From: Streptomyces sp. NBC_01241
Lineage (GTDB): Bacteria; Actinomycetota; Actinomycetes; Streptomycetales; Streptomycetaceae
Assembly: GCF_041435435.1 (NCBI RefSeq)
Contig: NZ_CP108494.1
Span: 3,444,501-3,508,500 of the forward strand
Length of the DNA stretch: 64,000 nucleotides
Direction of reading: 5' to 3'
The position numbers were made by a program, and so were the translations under genes. Below, in pieces: positions 1 through 34,902 of the stretch. Each line of letters starts with the position of its first letter. Within the stretch, counting starts at the first letter, position 1. Under the pieces are notes generated by a model. That model saw only the letters and a program-made list of their open reading frames with translations, ran no database searches and was not told where the DNA came from.

Positions 1-87
1 AGCAGTGAAGGACGTACCCGGAAGGCCGTGGAAGCCCTCTACAGGGCATCCCTGAACCATGATCACGGCCCACACGCGGCCCAGTAG
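1..87 (+). pseudogene. tyrosine integrase, C-terminal end (cut by window edge)
   Basis: The first 28 codons and the TAG stop match, with a few substitutions, the integrase tail that recurs at 2088-2174 (SSEGRxRKAVEAxYRAS). In the second copy this tail follows a recognisable tyrosine-recombinase active-site block, so this one should too. Everything upstream lies outside the window, so I cannot tell whether this copy is an intact integrase or another fragment. A short frame (MITAHTRPSR...) starts inside this tail at 59 and continues downstream. Confidence 0.6.
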
Positions 88-225
88 GCCCCCGACGGCC
101 CCGCCCGGCAAGGAAACTGCTGGTCGGGGCCCATATCTCCGCATCCCGCGAGACTTCATTTTCTGGCCGATCTACACGGGGACTCCGATCCCCGACGGTT
201 CCTGGCGGGACCGGATGTGGCTAGA
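59..225 (+). pseudogene. copy 1 of int-associated short ORF, interrupted after WRDRMWLD
   Basis: This frame begins at ATG 59, overlapping the integrase tail by 29 bp, and encodes a peptide nearly identical to the complete 60-residue copy at 2146-2328 (MITAxxRPSR, then PIYTGTPIPDGSWRDRMWLD). The missing end (TWI and stop) reappears at 861-873. A 635-bp segment carrying another gene has come between, so copy 1 is split. The frame runs on by chance into the inserted gene, which produces an artefactual 266-codon reading frame. No function is known to me for this peptide. Confidence 0.5.
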
Positions 226-873
226 TGATCTATTCCAAGGGGTTCCGGGTCAGTTGGGTTCTGTAGGGTCGTTTGAGATCATCTCGGCCATGGATGATGG
301 ACGCCGGGCCTATGAAGTCCGTTACGGCTGGAACGCCCCGACGGTGAAAGGGGCACTACTGTGCCTGCTCCTCCTCGGGCTTGCCTTCGCCCCAGGTTCT
401 CCGGGCTGGGCCGCCGCCGTGCTCGGCATCATGGGGGCCATATCCTTCTTGGCGATCGCCCTGCTGGCTTGCTCACGCCGGGTGGCTCTCCGCGTCGGTC
501 CGGAAGGTGTGACGTTGGGTGGCACACCGTTCGGCATCAAGACTGAGCGAATGGGCTGGCCAGAGGTCGTTTCCATCGACCTGTGGACGGAGCAGTCACA
601 TCGCATGGTGAAGACGTCGCATATCGGTGTGCGCCACAAGAAAGGATCTGCACCTCCGCTGGGGCTCTCGAGCTTGCCCGGGCTCCGACAGATCGACGAA
701 TACCTGGCTGCGCAGGTTCCCGCCGAGTTCGTGGAGGCATTCCGTGGAACCGTTCTGTCGAGCCGCGGAATGGCTTTGTGGCGTGTGGACCGTACCCGGT
801 TGAAGGCGACGGTCCGGGCGTTCGCCCCCGAGGTTTACCTCTTTGACCGTCTGGACTAGACACCTGGATCTAG
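221..873 (+). repeat. 635-bp gene cassette inserted in repeat copy 1, flanked by CTAGA
   Basis: The pentamer CTAGA occurs at 221-225 and 856-860. Removing 226-860 restores the sequence of the uninterrupted copies (GTGGCTAGA joined to CACCTGGATCTAG, compare 2307-2328). The insert carries one gene (290-859) whose TAG stop lies inside the right-hand CTAGA. This looks like an insertion with a 5-bp duplication, or site-specific recombination at a short core. No transposase or terminal inverted repeat is evident in the insert. Confidence 0.5.
290..859 (+). CDS. STM3941-like two-TM membrane protein
   Basis: I start this 189-residue protein at ATG 290 (MDDGRRAYEV), because the upstream part of the open frame belongs to the interrupted repeat. 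Two hydrophobic segments lie near residues 22-37 and 43-61. A beta-rich domain follows, with the pattern RVGPEGVTLGGTPF and a Trp-Pro-Glu-Val step, resembling the PH-like half of STM3941-family proteins of unknown function. A second, divergent member is at 1296. The gene fills a 635-bp insert in the integrase-associated repeat. Role unknown; a membrane location is inferred from the hydrophobic segments. Confidence 0.65.
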   Translation: MDDGRRAYEVRYGWNAPTVKGALLCLLLLGLAFAPGSPGWAAAVLGIMGAISFLAIALLACSRRVALRVGPEGVTLGGTPFGIKTERMGWPEVVSIDLWTEQSHRMVKTSHIGVRHKKGSAPPLGLSSLPGLRQIDEYLAAQVPAEFVEAFRGTVLSSRGMALWRVDRTRLKATVRAFAPEVYLFDRLD

Positions 874-1295
874 AGCGTGTCTCTTTGATGTGCTCATCAG
901 GTGATCGGATGTGCCTGTCCGATAGGCAAGCCCGCAGGCCAGCCAAGCGAGACGCAGCATCGCCGAACCACAGACGCTCCGCGCCTACCCGCCCGTGCCC
1001 GGGATGCCTCCGGCGGGGAACTACGGCACCGGGATGGCCAAGACGGTGTACTTGTGTCCGGTAGATCGTGGTTGAGGTGGGATCTGCCGTCGCGCCCGCC
1101 GACGTCCAAGGCGAAGCCGAGCAGACCCGCCCCCTGGCGCCCAGGTCGTACGTCCAACTGGGCGCTCCACCTGGACGTCAGGGAATGGGCCCACTGCACT
1201 ACCGTGTGGGACGACGGCAGACGGGACGGCCACGGCACCAGACGGTCTGCGAAAAGGCTTCCGCTGACGAGGGCTCTGGTCCTATCGTCTCAGCC
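874..1295. other. gene-free stretch, possible IS relic
   Basis: I find no supportable gene here. The decamer TGTCTCTTTG at 878-887 recurs at 1852-1861, just outside an IS5-like transposase tail, so both may be decayed IS ends. Short frames on both strands lack family features and ribosome-binding sites. The end of the stretch must hold the promoter of the gene at 1296. Confidence 0.35.
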
Positions 1296-1823
1296 ATGAT
1301 CAGAAACGGCGGTCCACTGCCCCCGACGGTCTACCCGCTCGCCAAGGGACGTGTGTGGGCCATGCTGGCCGGCTCTCTGGTCTTCGTCGCTCTGGGCATT
1401 GTTTTCCTGGTCGCCCACAGCACCGTGATGATGACTGTGGCGGGGGCGCTGGCCGTGCCCTTCTTCGGGCTCTGCTCGGTGAGCATCATCCAGCGTCTGC
1501 TCCGCGACCGACCGGAGTTGGTGCTGGACGACGCGGGAGTGGACCACGTGAGGCTGGGCCGGTTCGGCTGGGACGAAATAGCCGCCGTGCGGATACGCGG
1601 GCAGCAGGTACGTAACACCTCGCAGCGGTTCATTGAGCTGGTGCTGCACGATCCGGACGCCTATCTGGCTCGAGCCCCCAAGCTCGTCCGCAGCACCGCG
1701 TCCATGAACGCACGACTCGGCTTTGGTCCGGCCAACATGGCCACAAGCACCTTGCCGGTGCCGCCTGAGGCGGTCCTGGACGCGATGCGGCGTCACTGCC
1801 CCGGACTCGCAGTACAGCACTGA
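1296..1823 (+). CDS. STM3941-like two-TM membrane protein
   Basis: This 175-residue protein starts MIRNGGPLPPTVYPLAKGRVW. It has a hydrophobic hairpin near residues 20-60 and then a domain with the pattern ELVLDDAGVDHVRLGRFGWDE, typical of STM3941-family proteins: an N-terminal membrane hairpin followed by a PH-like beta domain. The start is ATG 1296; a longer in-frame extension to 1068 looks non-coding. It is a distant paralogue of the protein at 290. Both sit in the repeat-rich accessory segment, which suggests recent acquisition. Function unknown. Confidence 0.75.
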   Translation: MIRNGGPLPPTVYPLAKGRVWAMLAGSLVFVALGIVFLVAHSTVMMTVAGALAVPFFGLCSVSIIQRLLRDRPELVLDDAGVDHVRLGRFGWDEIAAVRIRGQQVRNTSQRFIELVLHDPDAYLARAPKLVRSTASMNARLGFGPANMATSTLPVPPEAVLDAMRRHCPGLAVQH

Positions 1824-1862
1824 GCGCGCCCGTTGGCCGACCGGCTGGTTCTGTCTCTTTGG

Positions 1863-1985
1863 TCAGCGTCGGGTCCAGATGAGGACGCCGGCAATGTGGA
1901 GTGCGGCCTGGTAGGCGATGGCGAGTTTGTCGGTTCGCGTGGCCCGGCCGCGCCACTGCTTGAGGCGGTTGATGCACCGTTCGAC
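1863..1985 (-). pseudogene. IS5-like transposase, C-terminal remnant
   Basis: Read on the minus strand, this encodes HGVERCINRLKQWRGRATR followed by DKLAIAYQAALHIAGVLIW and a stop. That is the conserved end of IS5-group DDE transposases, including the catalytic-region VERC and NRLKQWRG blocks. Only about 40 residues remain, and the frame breaks at about 1985-1989, where integrase sequence begins on the opposite strand. It records an insertion sequence that landed in the integrase gene and was then mostly deleted. Confidence 0.7.
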
Positions 1986-1988
1986 TCC

Positions 1989-2174
1989 GTGCTCTTGGAC
2001 GCAGGCGAGAACATCCGGGCCCTGAGCCAGTACCTCGGTCACGCCGATCCGGGTTTCACTCTGCGCACGTACACGCACCTGATGCCGAGCAGTGAAGGAC
2101 GTGCCAGGAAGGCCGTGGAAGCCCCCTACAGAGCGTCTCGGAACCATGATCACGGCCCAGAGACGGCCCAGTAG
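1989..2174 (+). pseudogene. int: tyrosine integrase, C-terminal remnant
   Basis: The frame reads VLLDAGENIRALSQYLGHAD, then PGFTLRTYTHLMPSSEGRAR and a 20-residue tail to the stop. The LGH box and the TYTH motif, whose Tyr codon is at 2070-2072, are the C-terminal active site of a tyrosine recombinase of the kind carried by Streptomyces integrative elements and phages. The N-terminal catalytic Arg and the DNA-binding domains are missing, and transposase sequence abuts it on the left, so it cannot be functional. Its last 87 bp duplicate 1-87. Confidence 0.75.
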
Positions 2175-2315
2175 GCTCCAAACGGCCCCGCCTGGCAAGG
2201 AAATTGCTGGTCGGGGCCCATGTCTCCCCATCTCGCGAGGCTTCATTTATTTCTGGCCGATCTACACGGGAACGCCGATCCCCGACGGTTCCTGGCGGGA
2301 CCGGATGTGGCTGGA
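2088..2315 (+). repeat. long direct repeat, copy 2 (copy 1 at 1-225)
   Basis: These 228 bp align with 1-225 over their whole length with scattered substitutions and one 3-bp length difference (extra codon in the TTCATTTAT stretch). The repeat spans the integrase tail and most of the overlapping 60-codon frame. Loss of exactly three bases keeps the second frame open. The last part recurs a third time at 3676-3760. Confidence 0.85.
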
Positions 2316-2328
2316 CACCTGGATCTAG
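2146..2328 (+). CDS. 60-residue int-associated small protein (conserved tail WRDRMWLDTWI)
   Basis: ATG 2146 lies inside the integrase tail, so this frame overlaps it by 29 bp, an arrangement that suggests translational coupling. The product begins MITAQRRPSR and ends PIPDGSWRDRMWLDTWI. Evidence for coding is comparative and internal to the window. Against the partial copy at 3676-3760, most base changes in the shared last 22 codons are at third positions and silent (CCG/CCC, ATC/ATT, GAC/GAT twice), and the length change against copy 1 is a whole codon. I recognise no domain. An alternative is a non-coding attachment region. Confidence 0.45.
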   Translation: MITAQRRPSRLQTAPPGKEIAGRGPCLPISRGFIYFWPIYTGTPIPDGSWRDRMWLDTWI

Positions 2329-2341
2329 CTGGGCAAGAGCA

Positions 2342-2376
2342 CCAAGGGGGCGCAGCCGTCGGCTGCGCCCCCTTGG
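2342..2376 (+). terminator. strong hairpin terminator
   Basis: A perfect 16-bp stem (CCAAGGGGGCGCAGCC and its complement) closes on a 3-nt loop, 13 bp past the stop of the small integrase-associated frame. It is likely the transcription end of that unit and may block reading in both directions. Confidence 0.8.
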
Positions 2377-2609
2377 CGGTTGTTGGCCTGCTGCCGGTCC
2401 GGAGAAGCGGGCGGCACTCACCCTCGCGCGTCGTCACCAGGAAGGTGGATTCACCAGTCGGCCCGCGGCCTCACCCGGTCATTCCGCTCAGCTCTCCCTG
2501 CACCTCTTACTGGAGAGATGAAAGAAAACAGTGTCCGCAGCGTCCGCAAGATCCACTCCCTCTCAGGGCGTGACCTGCCAGTCATTCCCCGCAACCGGAT
2601 GTCGACTCG

Positions 2610-2963
2610 TCACAGGATCTGGATGGCGACGACCCTCGGCGGATGGTTCGGGAAGGTGATGTCGTGCCAGCGCTCGATCTTCACCGAATCACCGTTGGCG
2701 TCGTAGTAGATCAGGTCGTTGTTGCCCGTGGAGATCCGGTCGACCCACCACCCGCCGAAGTCGGTCTTCCCGCCGTTCGCGTAGCAGTCGACGCTCTCAC
2801 GGCCGTCGAGGTGCGACCAGAGCTTCAAGAAGTTCTCCCCGCCGACACATTGGACGTGGTCGATGGCGAAGGCGTTACCGCTCGGCATGCTGACGGTGAG
2901 CGCGGCAGTTGTGGCGAGTGCCACGGCCACGGAACGTGCGGCCCTCTTGCTTTTCGAGATCAC
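2610..2963 (-). CDS. secreted beta/gamma-crystallin (SKLP-like) protein
   Basis: A GTG start at 2963 follows a good ribosome-binding site (GAAGGGG). The 117-residue product has a classic signal peptide of about 33 residues (KSKRAAR, then a hydrophobic stretch, ending GNAFA). The mature domain of about 84 residues begins IDHVQCVGGENFLKLWSH and continues with DFGGWWVDRISTGNND and IYYDANGDSVKIERWHDIT. That is the pattern of the Streptomyces killer-toxin-like protein SKLP, a beta/gamma-crystallin fold related to a yeast killer toxin. Two cysteines could form one disulphide. Toxic activity is inferred from the family only. Its position between repeat copies suggests acquisition. Confidence 0.8.
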   Translation of the reverse strand: MISKSKRAARSVAVALATTAALTVSMPSGNAFAIDHVQCVGGENFLKLWSHLDGRESVDCYANGGKTDFGGWWVDRISTGNNDLIYYDANGDSVKIERWHDITFPNHPPRVVAIQIL

Positions 2964-3403
2964 AGATTCCCCTTCACGCGGAGGCCGGCGCATGGGCCGA
3001 CCCTGGCGGCGATGTTGTGTCATGACGGAACGGTGCTTCGTCGAGCCGACAACCGGATACGACCCGTCAGGCAGCCATGAGGCCCCATCGGGCAGCTCGA
3101 ACGATGCTGCCTCCACGCTACAAACGGAATGAGGCCATACCGGCCGCAGCCAGGGAAAACACATCAAAAAGGTGATAACCCGGGGTAAGGCCGTGGCGTA
3201 CGGTCGAGCAGGCAACAGCCCGTACCCCCCGCCGAAGACGGATGCCGGCCGATGGCCCTCCTGGTCACGCCAGGCCAGTGGGGCGACGCACCGCGGACAA
3301 GAATTCCCGGGCCGTCACCACCCGCTACGAGAAAAGGGCCTACGTGTTCCACGGCACCGTCACGACCGCAGCGATCCGGTTCCGGCTTCGGCCCTGAGCG
3401 AGC
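2964..3403. other. gene-free stretch
   Basis: This contains the upstream region of the SKLP-like gene at its left end and otherwise no frame I can support. The longer frames have no family features, and their base use does not follow the GC-rich third-position pattern of neighbouring genes. Confidence 0.4.
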
Positions 3404-3643
3404 TCAATCCTTCGGTACTGACGCCCTGGAGAAGAGCAACATCGCGACAAACAAAGAAACCGGATAAATGCCGGCAGACCATGGCTGCGGCACGATCTTC
3501 TGGGCGCCGGCAACCAAACCGGCGAGCAGGAGCCAGCTCACAAGGAGCCACGGATGCTTCATCAGAGTCCTGGCCACGGTGGCCCATCGGCTCCCGGAAT
3601 TTCCCGCCGCCGGTCCCATGGCCAGACCATAGCCTCCGCCCAC
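3404..3643 (-). CDS. possible small two-TM membrane protein
   Basis: A frame of up to 79 codons (a shorter start at MGPAAGNSGS is also possible) encodes two hydrophobic segments, LLVSWLLLAGLVAGA and VSLFVAMLLF, separated by QKIVPQPWSAGIYP. A GGAGG-like sequence lies upstream. The composition is that of a small integral membrane protein, but I recognise no family and cannot exclude a chance frame. It sits alone between the SKLP-like gene and the third repeat copy. Confidence 0.35.
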   Translation of the reverse strand: MGGGYGLAMGPAAGNSGSRWATVARTLMKHPWLLVSWLLLAGLVAGAQKIVPQPWSAGIYPVSLFVAMLLFSRASVPKD

Positions 3644-3675
3644 GGCACAGGACTACGGCGAGGCAAAGCCCTCCC

Positions 3676-3760
3676 CATTCATTTCCGACCCATCCACACG
3701 GGAACGCCCATTCCCGATGTGTCCTGGCGGGACCAGATGTGGCTGGATACCTGGATTTAG
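3676..3760 (+). repeat. third, partial copy of the int-associated tail
   Basis: These 85 bp match the end of the 60-codon frame (IHTGTPIPDVSWRDQMWLDT, then WI and TAG). The integrase-overlapping first part is absent. The 18-mer ending in the stop codon is found at 856-873, 2311-2328 and 3743-3760 with one to three changes each, so three segments of different content each end in the same site. The upstream in-frame sequence is unrelated to the other copies. Confidence 0.7.
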
Positions 3761-3911: not shown

Positions 3912-5555
3912 ATGCGCAGTGGAGTGAAGGTCGCGATAGTCGGCGGCGTGTTCGCGGTCGTGGTCGGCGGGGTGGGCTACGGCGCGTACAACGTCCTGGA
4001 CGGGCTGAACGGCGGTGGGGGTGGCGGCGACGGTACGGACGGCAAGTCCGCCTCCGCCGAGGTGAAGACGGGGCCGGTCACCGCCGCGGAGATCGATGAC
4101 ACGGTGAAGCGGTTCCTCAAGGCCTGGGCGAGCGGGGACGCGGCCGTCGCATCCCAGCTCACCAACAACGCGACCGAGGCCGAACCGGCCCTGAGCGGCT
4201 ACCGCGAGAGCGCCCATGTCACCGACGCGGTGATCACTCCGGGCCCGGCGGTGGGTACGAAGGTGCCCTACACGGTGAAGGCGACCGTGTCGTTCGAGGG
4301 GAAGTCCAAGCCCTGGTCGTACTCCTCCGAACTGACCGTGGTACGCGGCCTGACCACCGGCCGGCCGCTGGTCGACTGGGCGCCCACCGTGATCCACCCG
4401 CAGCTGACGGCCGGTGCGTCGCTGAAGACGGGTGAGGCGTCGGCGCCGTCGATCGAGGCCGTCGACCACAACGGCAGGGCGCTCACCAAGGAGAAGTACC
4501 CCTCCCTGGGCCCGATCCTGGACGCACTGCGCGACAAGTACGGGGAGAAGGCCGGCGGCACGGCCGGTATCGAGACCTGGATCGAGAGCGAGAACGCGGA
4601 CGGGCCGGACAAGACCCTGCTGGTCCTCACCAAGGGCAGGCCGGGCAAGCTGCAGACCACCCTGGACGCGAACGCCCAGGCGGCGGCCGAGACGGCCGTG
4701 AAGAAGTTCAGCCAGGCGTCGGTGGTCGCTGTCCGGCCGTCCACGGGCGCGATCCGCGCGGTCGCCAACAATCCGGCCACCGGCTTCAACACGGCGATGC
4801 AGGGCAAGCAGGCACCCGGGTCGACGATGAAGATCGTGACGGCGGCGATGCTGATCGAGAAGGGCCTCGCCTCGGCGAACCAGAAGATCGAGTGCCCGCC
4901 CACCGCGATGTACATGGGCCGTACCTTCAAGAACCTGGACGACTTCTCGATCCCCGACGGCACCCTGACGACCAGCTTCGCCCGCTCCTGCAACACGGCC
5001 TTCATCAAACTGATCGACGACACGAAGGACGACGCGGCGCTCGCCAAGGAGGCCCGCGACGTCTTCGGCATCGGCCTGAACTGGCAGACCGGTGTGGTGA
5101 CCTTCGACGGCAGCGTGCCCGAGACCACCGGTGGCGAGGCGGCCGCCCAGTACATCGGGCAGGGTACGGTCCAGATGAACGCCCTCAACATGGCGTCCAT
5201 CACCGCCACCGCGAAGAACGGCACCTTCCGCCAGCCGATCCTCGTCGACCGCGACCTCGACGGCCGGCCGATCGCCACCGCCTCCCGGTCGCTTTCCCCG
5301 TCCGCGTCCCAGCAGGTCACCAACATGATGCGCCAGACCGCGAGTTGGGGCACCGGAAAGGCCGCGATGGCCTCGGTCGGCGGCGACAAGGGCGCCAAGA
5401 CGGGCTCGGCGGAGGTCGACGGCCAGGCCACGTCCAACAGCTGGTTCACCGGCTTCAGCAACGACCTGGCCGCCGCGGCGGTCGTCCAGTCCGGCGGCCA
5501 CGGCGGCGACGCGGCAGGCCCGGTGGTGGCGGCAGTGCTGCAAGCGGGGTCGTGA
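3912..5555 (+). CDS. penicillin-binding protein with NTF2-like N-terminal domain
   Basis: This 547-residue protein is a membrane-anchored transpeptidase that cross-links peptidoglycan outside the membrane. A short cytoplasmic start and one membrane segment (about residues 6-28) precede a glycine linker and an NTF2-like (MecA_N type) domain near 55-160. The penicillin-binding domain follows, with its three signature motifs in order: S304-T-M-K307 (nucleophile Ser), S359-C-N361 and K496-T-G498. A GGAGGGGG sequence precedes the ATG and a perfect palindrome lies just upstream. It is shorter than HMW class B cell-division PBPs, and such genes in Streptomyces are often accessory or sporulation-linked. 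High confidence in the family; the specific role is not determined. Confidence 0.93.
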   Translation: MRSGVKVAIVGGVFAVVVGGVGYGAYNVLDGLNGGGGGGDGTDGKSASAEVKTGPVTAAEIDDTVKRFLKAWASGDAAVASQLTNNATEAEPALSGYRESAHVTDAVITPGPAVGTKVPYTVKATVSFEGKSKPWSYSSELTVVRGLTTGRPLVDWAPTVIHPQLTAGASLKTGEASAPSIEAVDHNGRALTKEKYPSLGPILDALRDKYGEKAGGTAGIETWIESENADGPDKTLLVLTKGRPGKLQTTLDANAQAAAETAVKKFSQASVVAVRPSTGAIRAVANNPATGFNTAMQGKQAPGSTMKIVTAAMLIEKGLASANQKIECPPTAMYMGRTFKNLDDFSIPDGTLTTSFARSCNTAFIKLIDDTKDDAALAKEARDVFGIGLNWQTGVVTFDGSVPETTGGEAAAQYIGQGTVQMNALNMASITATAKNGTFRQPILVDRDLDGRPIATASRSLSPSASQQVTNMMRQTASWGTGKAAMASVGGDKGAKTGSAEVDGQATSNSWFTGFSNDLAAAAVVQSGGHGGDAAGPVVAAVLQAGS

Positions 5556-34789: not shown

Positions 34790-34828
34790 TGAACCCTTCG
34801 CGAGCGAACTCGCGAACGGCTTGTGCGG

Positions 34829-34902
34829 TGGACCTGTGGGGATTTGAACCCCAGACCCCCTCGATGCGAACGAGGTGCGCTACCAGACTGCGCCACAGGC
34901 CC
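34829..34902 (-). tRNA. tRNA-Ala (CGC)
   Basis: The minus strand folds as a 74-nt tRNA: acceptor GGGCCTG pairing with CAGGTCC (one G-U), D stem GCGC/GCGC, anticodon stem CCTCG/CGAGG with loop TTCGCAT giving anticodon CGC (reads GCG, Ala), and T arm TGGGG-TTCAAAT-CCCCA. The discriminator base is A and the CCA end is not encoded. GCG is a common codon here, so the tRNA should be well used. It follows sepX/glpR on the same strand. Confidence 0.93.

Follow-up and report, generated by a model that had tools for sequence, protein, structure and literature searches.

What process left several copies of one short sequence, with different genes between them, at the left end of a 64,000-nucleotide stretch of the Streptomyces sp. 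NBC_01241 genome (the window; G000:C1:3444501–3508500, where G000 is the source genome)? The initial annotation had placed an 18-bp site at 856–873, 2311–2328 and 3743–3760, with its first five bases also at 221–225, and had read the locus as single-gene cassettes accreted by repeated site-specific integration. All of these positions are borne out: the 18-mer is found there with one mismatch, exactly and with two mismatches, respectively, that is, three matches compared with 0.06 expected by chance (three were reached in 0 of 100 shuffles), and CTAGA is present at 221–225.

The repeat is the 3′ end of pmt

The 18-mer merely closes a larger repeat of ~84 bp plus a stop codon, and this repeat is coding sequence, namely the tail of the pmt gene (FIYFWPIYTGTPIPDGSWRDRMWLDTWI*). 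A fourth, functional copy (site 0) ends the true pmt gene at G000:C1:3438384–3438470 (window −6117 to −6031) and is 98% identical to site 2, the copy that contains the exact 18-mer. Located ~6 kb before the window, the ORF ending in site 0 is 686 aa long and carries PMT and PMT_4TMC domains; pmt encodes a protein O-mannosyltransferase, for which the PGAP name is “phospholipid carrier-dependent glycosyltransferase,” and pmt homologues carry exactly this name in public annotation. Infection by phage phiC31 depends on pmt. Because the site is the 3′ end of a conserved gene, it was found in 284 of the 296 genomes sampled from the genus. Where the site is empty (e.g., in G029, G280, and G096), a penicillin-binding protein (PBP) gene follows pmt after about 100–290 bp. 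Far from its first pmt end, G007 has another pmt-like gene end (C1:5998403–5999687), which is 80% identical at the DNA level to the pmt end of another species and may be a pmt paralogue or a displaced copy. A tRNA attachment site was rejected, the sole tRNA of the window being located at 34827–34902.

Anatomy of the locus

From left to right, the order is pmt, site 0 with a TAG stop and a hairpin, segment S1, site 1, segment S2, site 2, segment S3, site 3 and the PBP gene. S1 contains an IS701-family transposase, a 262-aa ORF weakly similar to bPH, an IS5-family fragment, a 249-aa ORF, an IS3-family element and the 3′ end of an integrase gene (int), which reaches into the window. The features of the window are as follows:

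1–87 (+), 3′ end of a tyrosine integrase gene, the S1 relic (ORF L031:15351–15587, window −149 to 87)
155–225 (+), left part of site 1, the integrase-side att copy of the pmt tail (repeat and block alignment)
222–861 (+), insertion inside the site 1 tail, with a complete cargo gene (match to a gene in genome G130)
856–873 (+), right part of site 1, the end of the split pmt tail (18-mer match; first bases shared with the cargo gene end)
1296–1823 (+), STM3941-family cargo gene, segment S2 (NF041635, E = 1.3e-23)
1863–1980 (−), C-terminal relic of an IS5-family transposase, joined to the int relic (NF033580, E = 6e-8 for window 1863–2246, minus strand)
1985–2174 (+), 3′-terminal part of another tyrosine integrase gene, the S2 relic (amino acid comparison with integrase loci)
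2242–2328 (+), site 2, pmt-tail att copy in which core and stop codon are both intact (18-mer and repeat match)
2342–2376 (no strand), perfect 17-bp hairpin just 3′ of site 2 (inverted-repeat match)
2610–3215 (−), ORF with a secreted beta/gamma-crystallin (SKLP-like) cargo protein, segment S3 (PF09076, E = 3.5e-26)
3229–3397 (+), internally deleted IS5-family transposase relic (E = 0.004, weak)
3676–3760 (+), site 3, the outermost and most degenerate copy of the pmt tail (18-mer and repeat match)
3912–5555 (+), penicillin-binding-protein-like gene, right border of the locus (directly 3′ of pmt in empty-site relatives)

Integrase 3′ ends directly precede two of the tail copies, as had been noted from the sequence: one is in an ORF that enters the window from the left and stops at 87 (site 1), the other within 1833–2174 (site 2), and the blocks formed by int end plus site are 91% identical over 331 bp. 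An intact integrase gene, which was to be looked for left of position 1, is not there: the remainder of the S1 int gene is severed by an IS3-family insertion (recognized by its IS3 transposase match), and the genome gave no match to a pmt-type integrase at E ≤ 1e-60. An int remnant was not found in segment S3, nor was a rep or tra gene found between pmt and the PBP gene. The genes between the sites do differ, as claimed, with an STM3941-family gene at 1296–1823, int and IS relics, and the SKLP-like gene at 2610–3215, but the gene called STM3941-like in the first segment has no family match. Homologues of the 1296–1823 gene are present in 9 other sampled genomes. Pieces of the IS5 relic at 3229–3397 are repeated in more than 100 genomes, in some of these near both chromosome contig ends.

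The hairpin after site 2 is laid out like the one after the functional pmt end and is probably an arm of the inserted element and a terminator. The core of site 1 (TTCATTTTCTGG) is 3 bp short relative to TTCATTTATTTCTGG, and site 3 was probably the native pmt end before it was displaced.

The 221–225/856–873 pair is a single tail split by a separate, unrelated cargo insertion. Positions 266–861 are 90% identical at the nucleotide level to a gene in G130, and this homology stops at 861; CTAGAC at 856–861 is therefore the cargo gene's own end, and the apparent half-site at 221–225 arises because the cargo joined at shared bases. The real cargo gene within ORF 59–859, which no NCBIfam or Pfam model matched, is probably the 189-aa CDS at 290–859. 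An STM3941 pair was also rejected: in one comparison, 224–859 and 1296–1823 matched at 24% over 79 aa (E = 0.005), which does not make them convincing homologues. A second, smaller site-specific event with CTAGA as a 5-bp core would accord with the presence of this motif at both edges of the insertion, but CTAGAC on the right is part of the cargo gene, given that it also ends the G130 homologue in a locus without a pmt tail, and five shared bases fit illegitimate joining; we consider such an event improbable.

One subfamily of integrases is linked to the pmt tail

In a scan of named genomes, 39 integrases had ≥68% identity to the query (pmt-type integrases), and for 37 of them the pmt tail lies just 3′ of the integrase gene, mostly ~70 bp away; none of the 41 more distant integrases (<68%) has such a tail. 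The PBP gene comes next after the tail in nearly all of the 37 loci. For the first 30 integrase loci of another genome set, where the search covered 1.5 kb beside the integrase, the tail was found in 16/19 loci at ≥71% identity and in 0/11 below 67%; in two of the three exceptions (G253 and G232; the third is G276), it is present farther out than 1.5 kb. The int relic at 1985–2174 has a median amino acid identity of 84% to 38 pmt-type integrase loci and of 73% to 41 others. Residues R218, H349, R352, H375, and Y385, which are of the tyrosine-recombinase type, are invariant in 18 integrases. The earlier idea of serial site-specific integration at one att site thus gains support from the integrase-tail link, with the correction that the 18-mer is the end of pmt and not a free-standing integrase site.

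The stop codon after pmt is TAG in 35/39 loci with an insert, compared with 7/17 empty loci; C(T/A)G typically comes next, and an inverted repeat then follows in the loci read by eye. Several attR copies read TCC where the attL of the same locus reads TTC (G303, G191, and G226), which would make base 2 of the core TTCATYTAYTTCTGG the left limit of the crossover.

Occupants of the pmt site in other genomes

A comparison of strains for each inter-site segment had been proposed, and the pmt-PBP interval indeed differs among relatives, being empty (G029, G280, and G096), filled by a full actinomycete integrative and conjugative element (AICE; G019, G015, and G023) or relic-bearing. In the three filled genomes, an AICE-type island of 8.8–15.1 kb sits between two tail copies; G034 has the same anatomy, with 16.6 kb and extra DNA before the PBP gene, and intact occupants overall span 9–17 kb. 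As checked by domain content in G019 and G034, the intact islands encode a tyrosine integrase of ~412–419 aa, a small HTH_17 Xis-like protein, Prim-Pol (E = 1.5e-48) and DUF3631 (E = 1e-63) replication proteins and an FtsK/TraB translocase; GntR and NUDIX genes are additionally present in G034. The translocase ORFs are 693 aa each and lie in an AICE context, with PF01580 matches at E = 2e-5 in G019, 0.5 bit above the curated cut-off, and at E = 0.0025 in G034, below it. The intact same-site relatives thus combine an integrase adjoining att, an FtsK/SpoIIIE-type TraB, a Prim-Pol-type initiator and flanking direct repeats. The segments of our locus contain int 3′ ends, cargo and IS genes only, in place of the integrase, rep and traB genes of an AICE, and are therefore decayed AICEs rather than AICEs. 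Judged against the intact occupants, the supposed single-gene cassettes are thus decayed AICEs with cargo and IS debris.

Short relics, with few cargo genes and full or partial tail copies, were also seen between pmt and the PBP gene in G089, G223, G099, G182, and G194; they represent the same decay pattern in other species. In Streptomyces scabiei 87.22 (NC_013929.1; locus L077, 10001–12170), a pmt-type integrase gene is followed directly by the pmt tail and the PBP gene, and this locus is probably a pmt AICE.

Origin of the locus

We propose, at a probability of about 0.93, that the locus arose by serial AICE integrations at the pmt 3′ end, followed by decay; the anatomy and the integrase-site link are the observed part of this explanation. 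The pmt 3′ end would serve as attB for one subfamily of AICE tyrosine integrases, and the integrase would recombine attP with the pmt tail within the last 84 bp of the gene, at an inferred point between base 2 of the conserved core (left bound) and the stop codon (right bound). On the pmt side, element DNA would start at the stop codon, and on the other side it would reach at least to core base 2. Pmt would remain intact because a tail copy, a TAG stop and a hairpin come with the element; the displaced tail would land on the far side of int. Two int ends suggest that at least two elements entered in succession, and three displaced tails that there were probably three; by analogy, segment S3 may once have been an AICE as well. 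The leftmost insertion would be the youngest and site 3 the oldest, because site 3 is the most degenerate copy and adjoins the PBP gene, in accordance with standard att logic. Decay via IS insertion and deletion would then have reduced the elements to cargo genes, 3′ remnants of int and degraded att copies. The 3-bp deletion in the core of site 1, the degenerate core of site 3, the lack of an int remnant in S3 and the absence of rep and tra genes between pmt and the PBP gene count against this explanation.

Single cargo genes between tail copies do occur, both here and in G089 and G194, as would be the case if a dedicated integrase captured single genes at one att site in an integron-like manner. 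However, the intact occupants of the same site are 9–17 kb AICEs with the same integrase; the integrase gene belongs to the element and is truncated in the relics, and its ends lie inside the segments, whereas in a single-gene cassette system the integrase lies outside the unit and the recombination site is borne by the cassette. No cassette-borne recombination site was seen besides the pmt tail, and none of the homologues of the G000 cargo genes in other genomes is found at the listed pmt sites of those genomes, making single-gene capture highly improbable. Conserved local gene order was also rejected, cargo homologues being located elsewhere in other genomes. We give almost no credence to the idea that homologous or illegitimate recombination duplicated the pmt 3′ end in tandem and that unrelated insertions came later: the tails are near-identical inside one genome (on average 97% identical, compared with 78% between genomes), as duplicates might be, but sites 1 and 2 are each bordered on the left by an int 3′ end at a fixed spacing of ~70 bp, a spacing that is common to dozens of intact elements and that duplication does not predict.

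Co-divergence of integrase and host pmt

The preferred explanation, serial AICE integration, has a further aspect. The 97% and 78% values are means for attL versus attR tails within each of 17 genomes and for tails of different genomes, and they led us to drop the idea that the elements import foreign tails. In this sample, which consists of the 17 occupied genomes only and was analyzed by pairwise identities, integrase DNA identity tracks the identity of the pmt body at ~1:1 (means 0.75 and 0.76), and the two divergences are correlated (Mantel r = 0.82, p = 0.0001). Most simply, this would mean that each host lineage has its own circulating elements, whose divergence accompanies that of the hosts; alternatively, conversion between the two tail copies may have taken place. 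We tentatively suggest that the pmt-targeting AICEs might form a host-locked integrase subfamily, a reading on which the odds are close to even but slightly adverse, with att copies that carry the host's own tail and with exchange mainly within lineages because the att site is a variable protein-coding tail.

Implications and comparison with known systems

The repeats are thus explained without a new system, and the pmt 3′ end emerges as an integration hot spot across the genus. In annotation work, a fragment of the pmt tail found elsewhere than in pmt marks a hidden AICE relic of the kind missed by searches based on tra and rep genes. The integrase-site link, together with the co-divergence, makes a case for a protein-coding att site that possibly restricts the host range of a conjugative element.

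CIMEs (cis-mobilizable elements) are att-flanked DNA without integrase or transfer genes, such as the ICESt1-related islands of Streptococcus thermophilus. Segments S2 and S3 have this anatomy, with att on both sides and no integrase or transfer genes of their own, a match qualified by the int 3′ end that S2 retains and by the altered cores of sites 1 and 3. Judging from their sequence, the segments are now non-autonomous, and with att-like repeats on their flanks they could in principle be mobilized by a related incoming AICE. For CIMEs, Pavlovic 2004 is cited by Ghinet et al., 2011 (PMC3218068).

AICE accretion is known at tRNA-Arg and tRNA-Lys genes (Choufa et al., 2022, PMC9513070, Figure 2; Fean5518/Fean5534 and Sav3708/Sav3728 in Ghinet et al., 2011, PMC3218068), where, as here, tandem elements occupy one att site with direct repeats between them; the target in those cases is a tRNA and the elements are largely intact, whereas in G000 the target is pmt and relics are left. 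AICE decay that leaves truncated integrases, cargo and direct repeats has been described at a “phospholipid carrier-dependent glycosyltransferase” gene (AICE family 06; Choufa et al., 2022, PMC9513070, Figure 4), the only paper found in a literature search for pmt with AICEs. The target gene of this family bears the PGAP name of pmt, and the site has decayed derivatives; in name and pattern the two cases are alike, and the gene is probably pmt. Our locus differs in its three displaced repeats, its IS insertions and its split repeat. The precedent is therefore close, and the locus is a more layered new instance of an already known type of event; the new detail, and the part most worth following, is that pmt-type integrases co-diverge with the pmt genes of their hosts.
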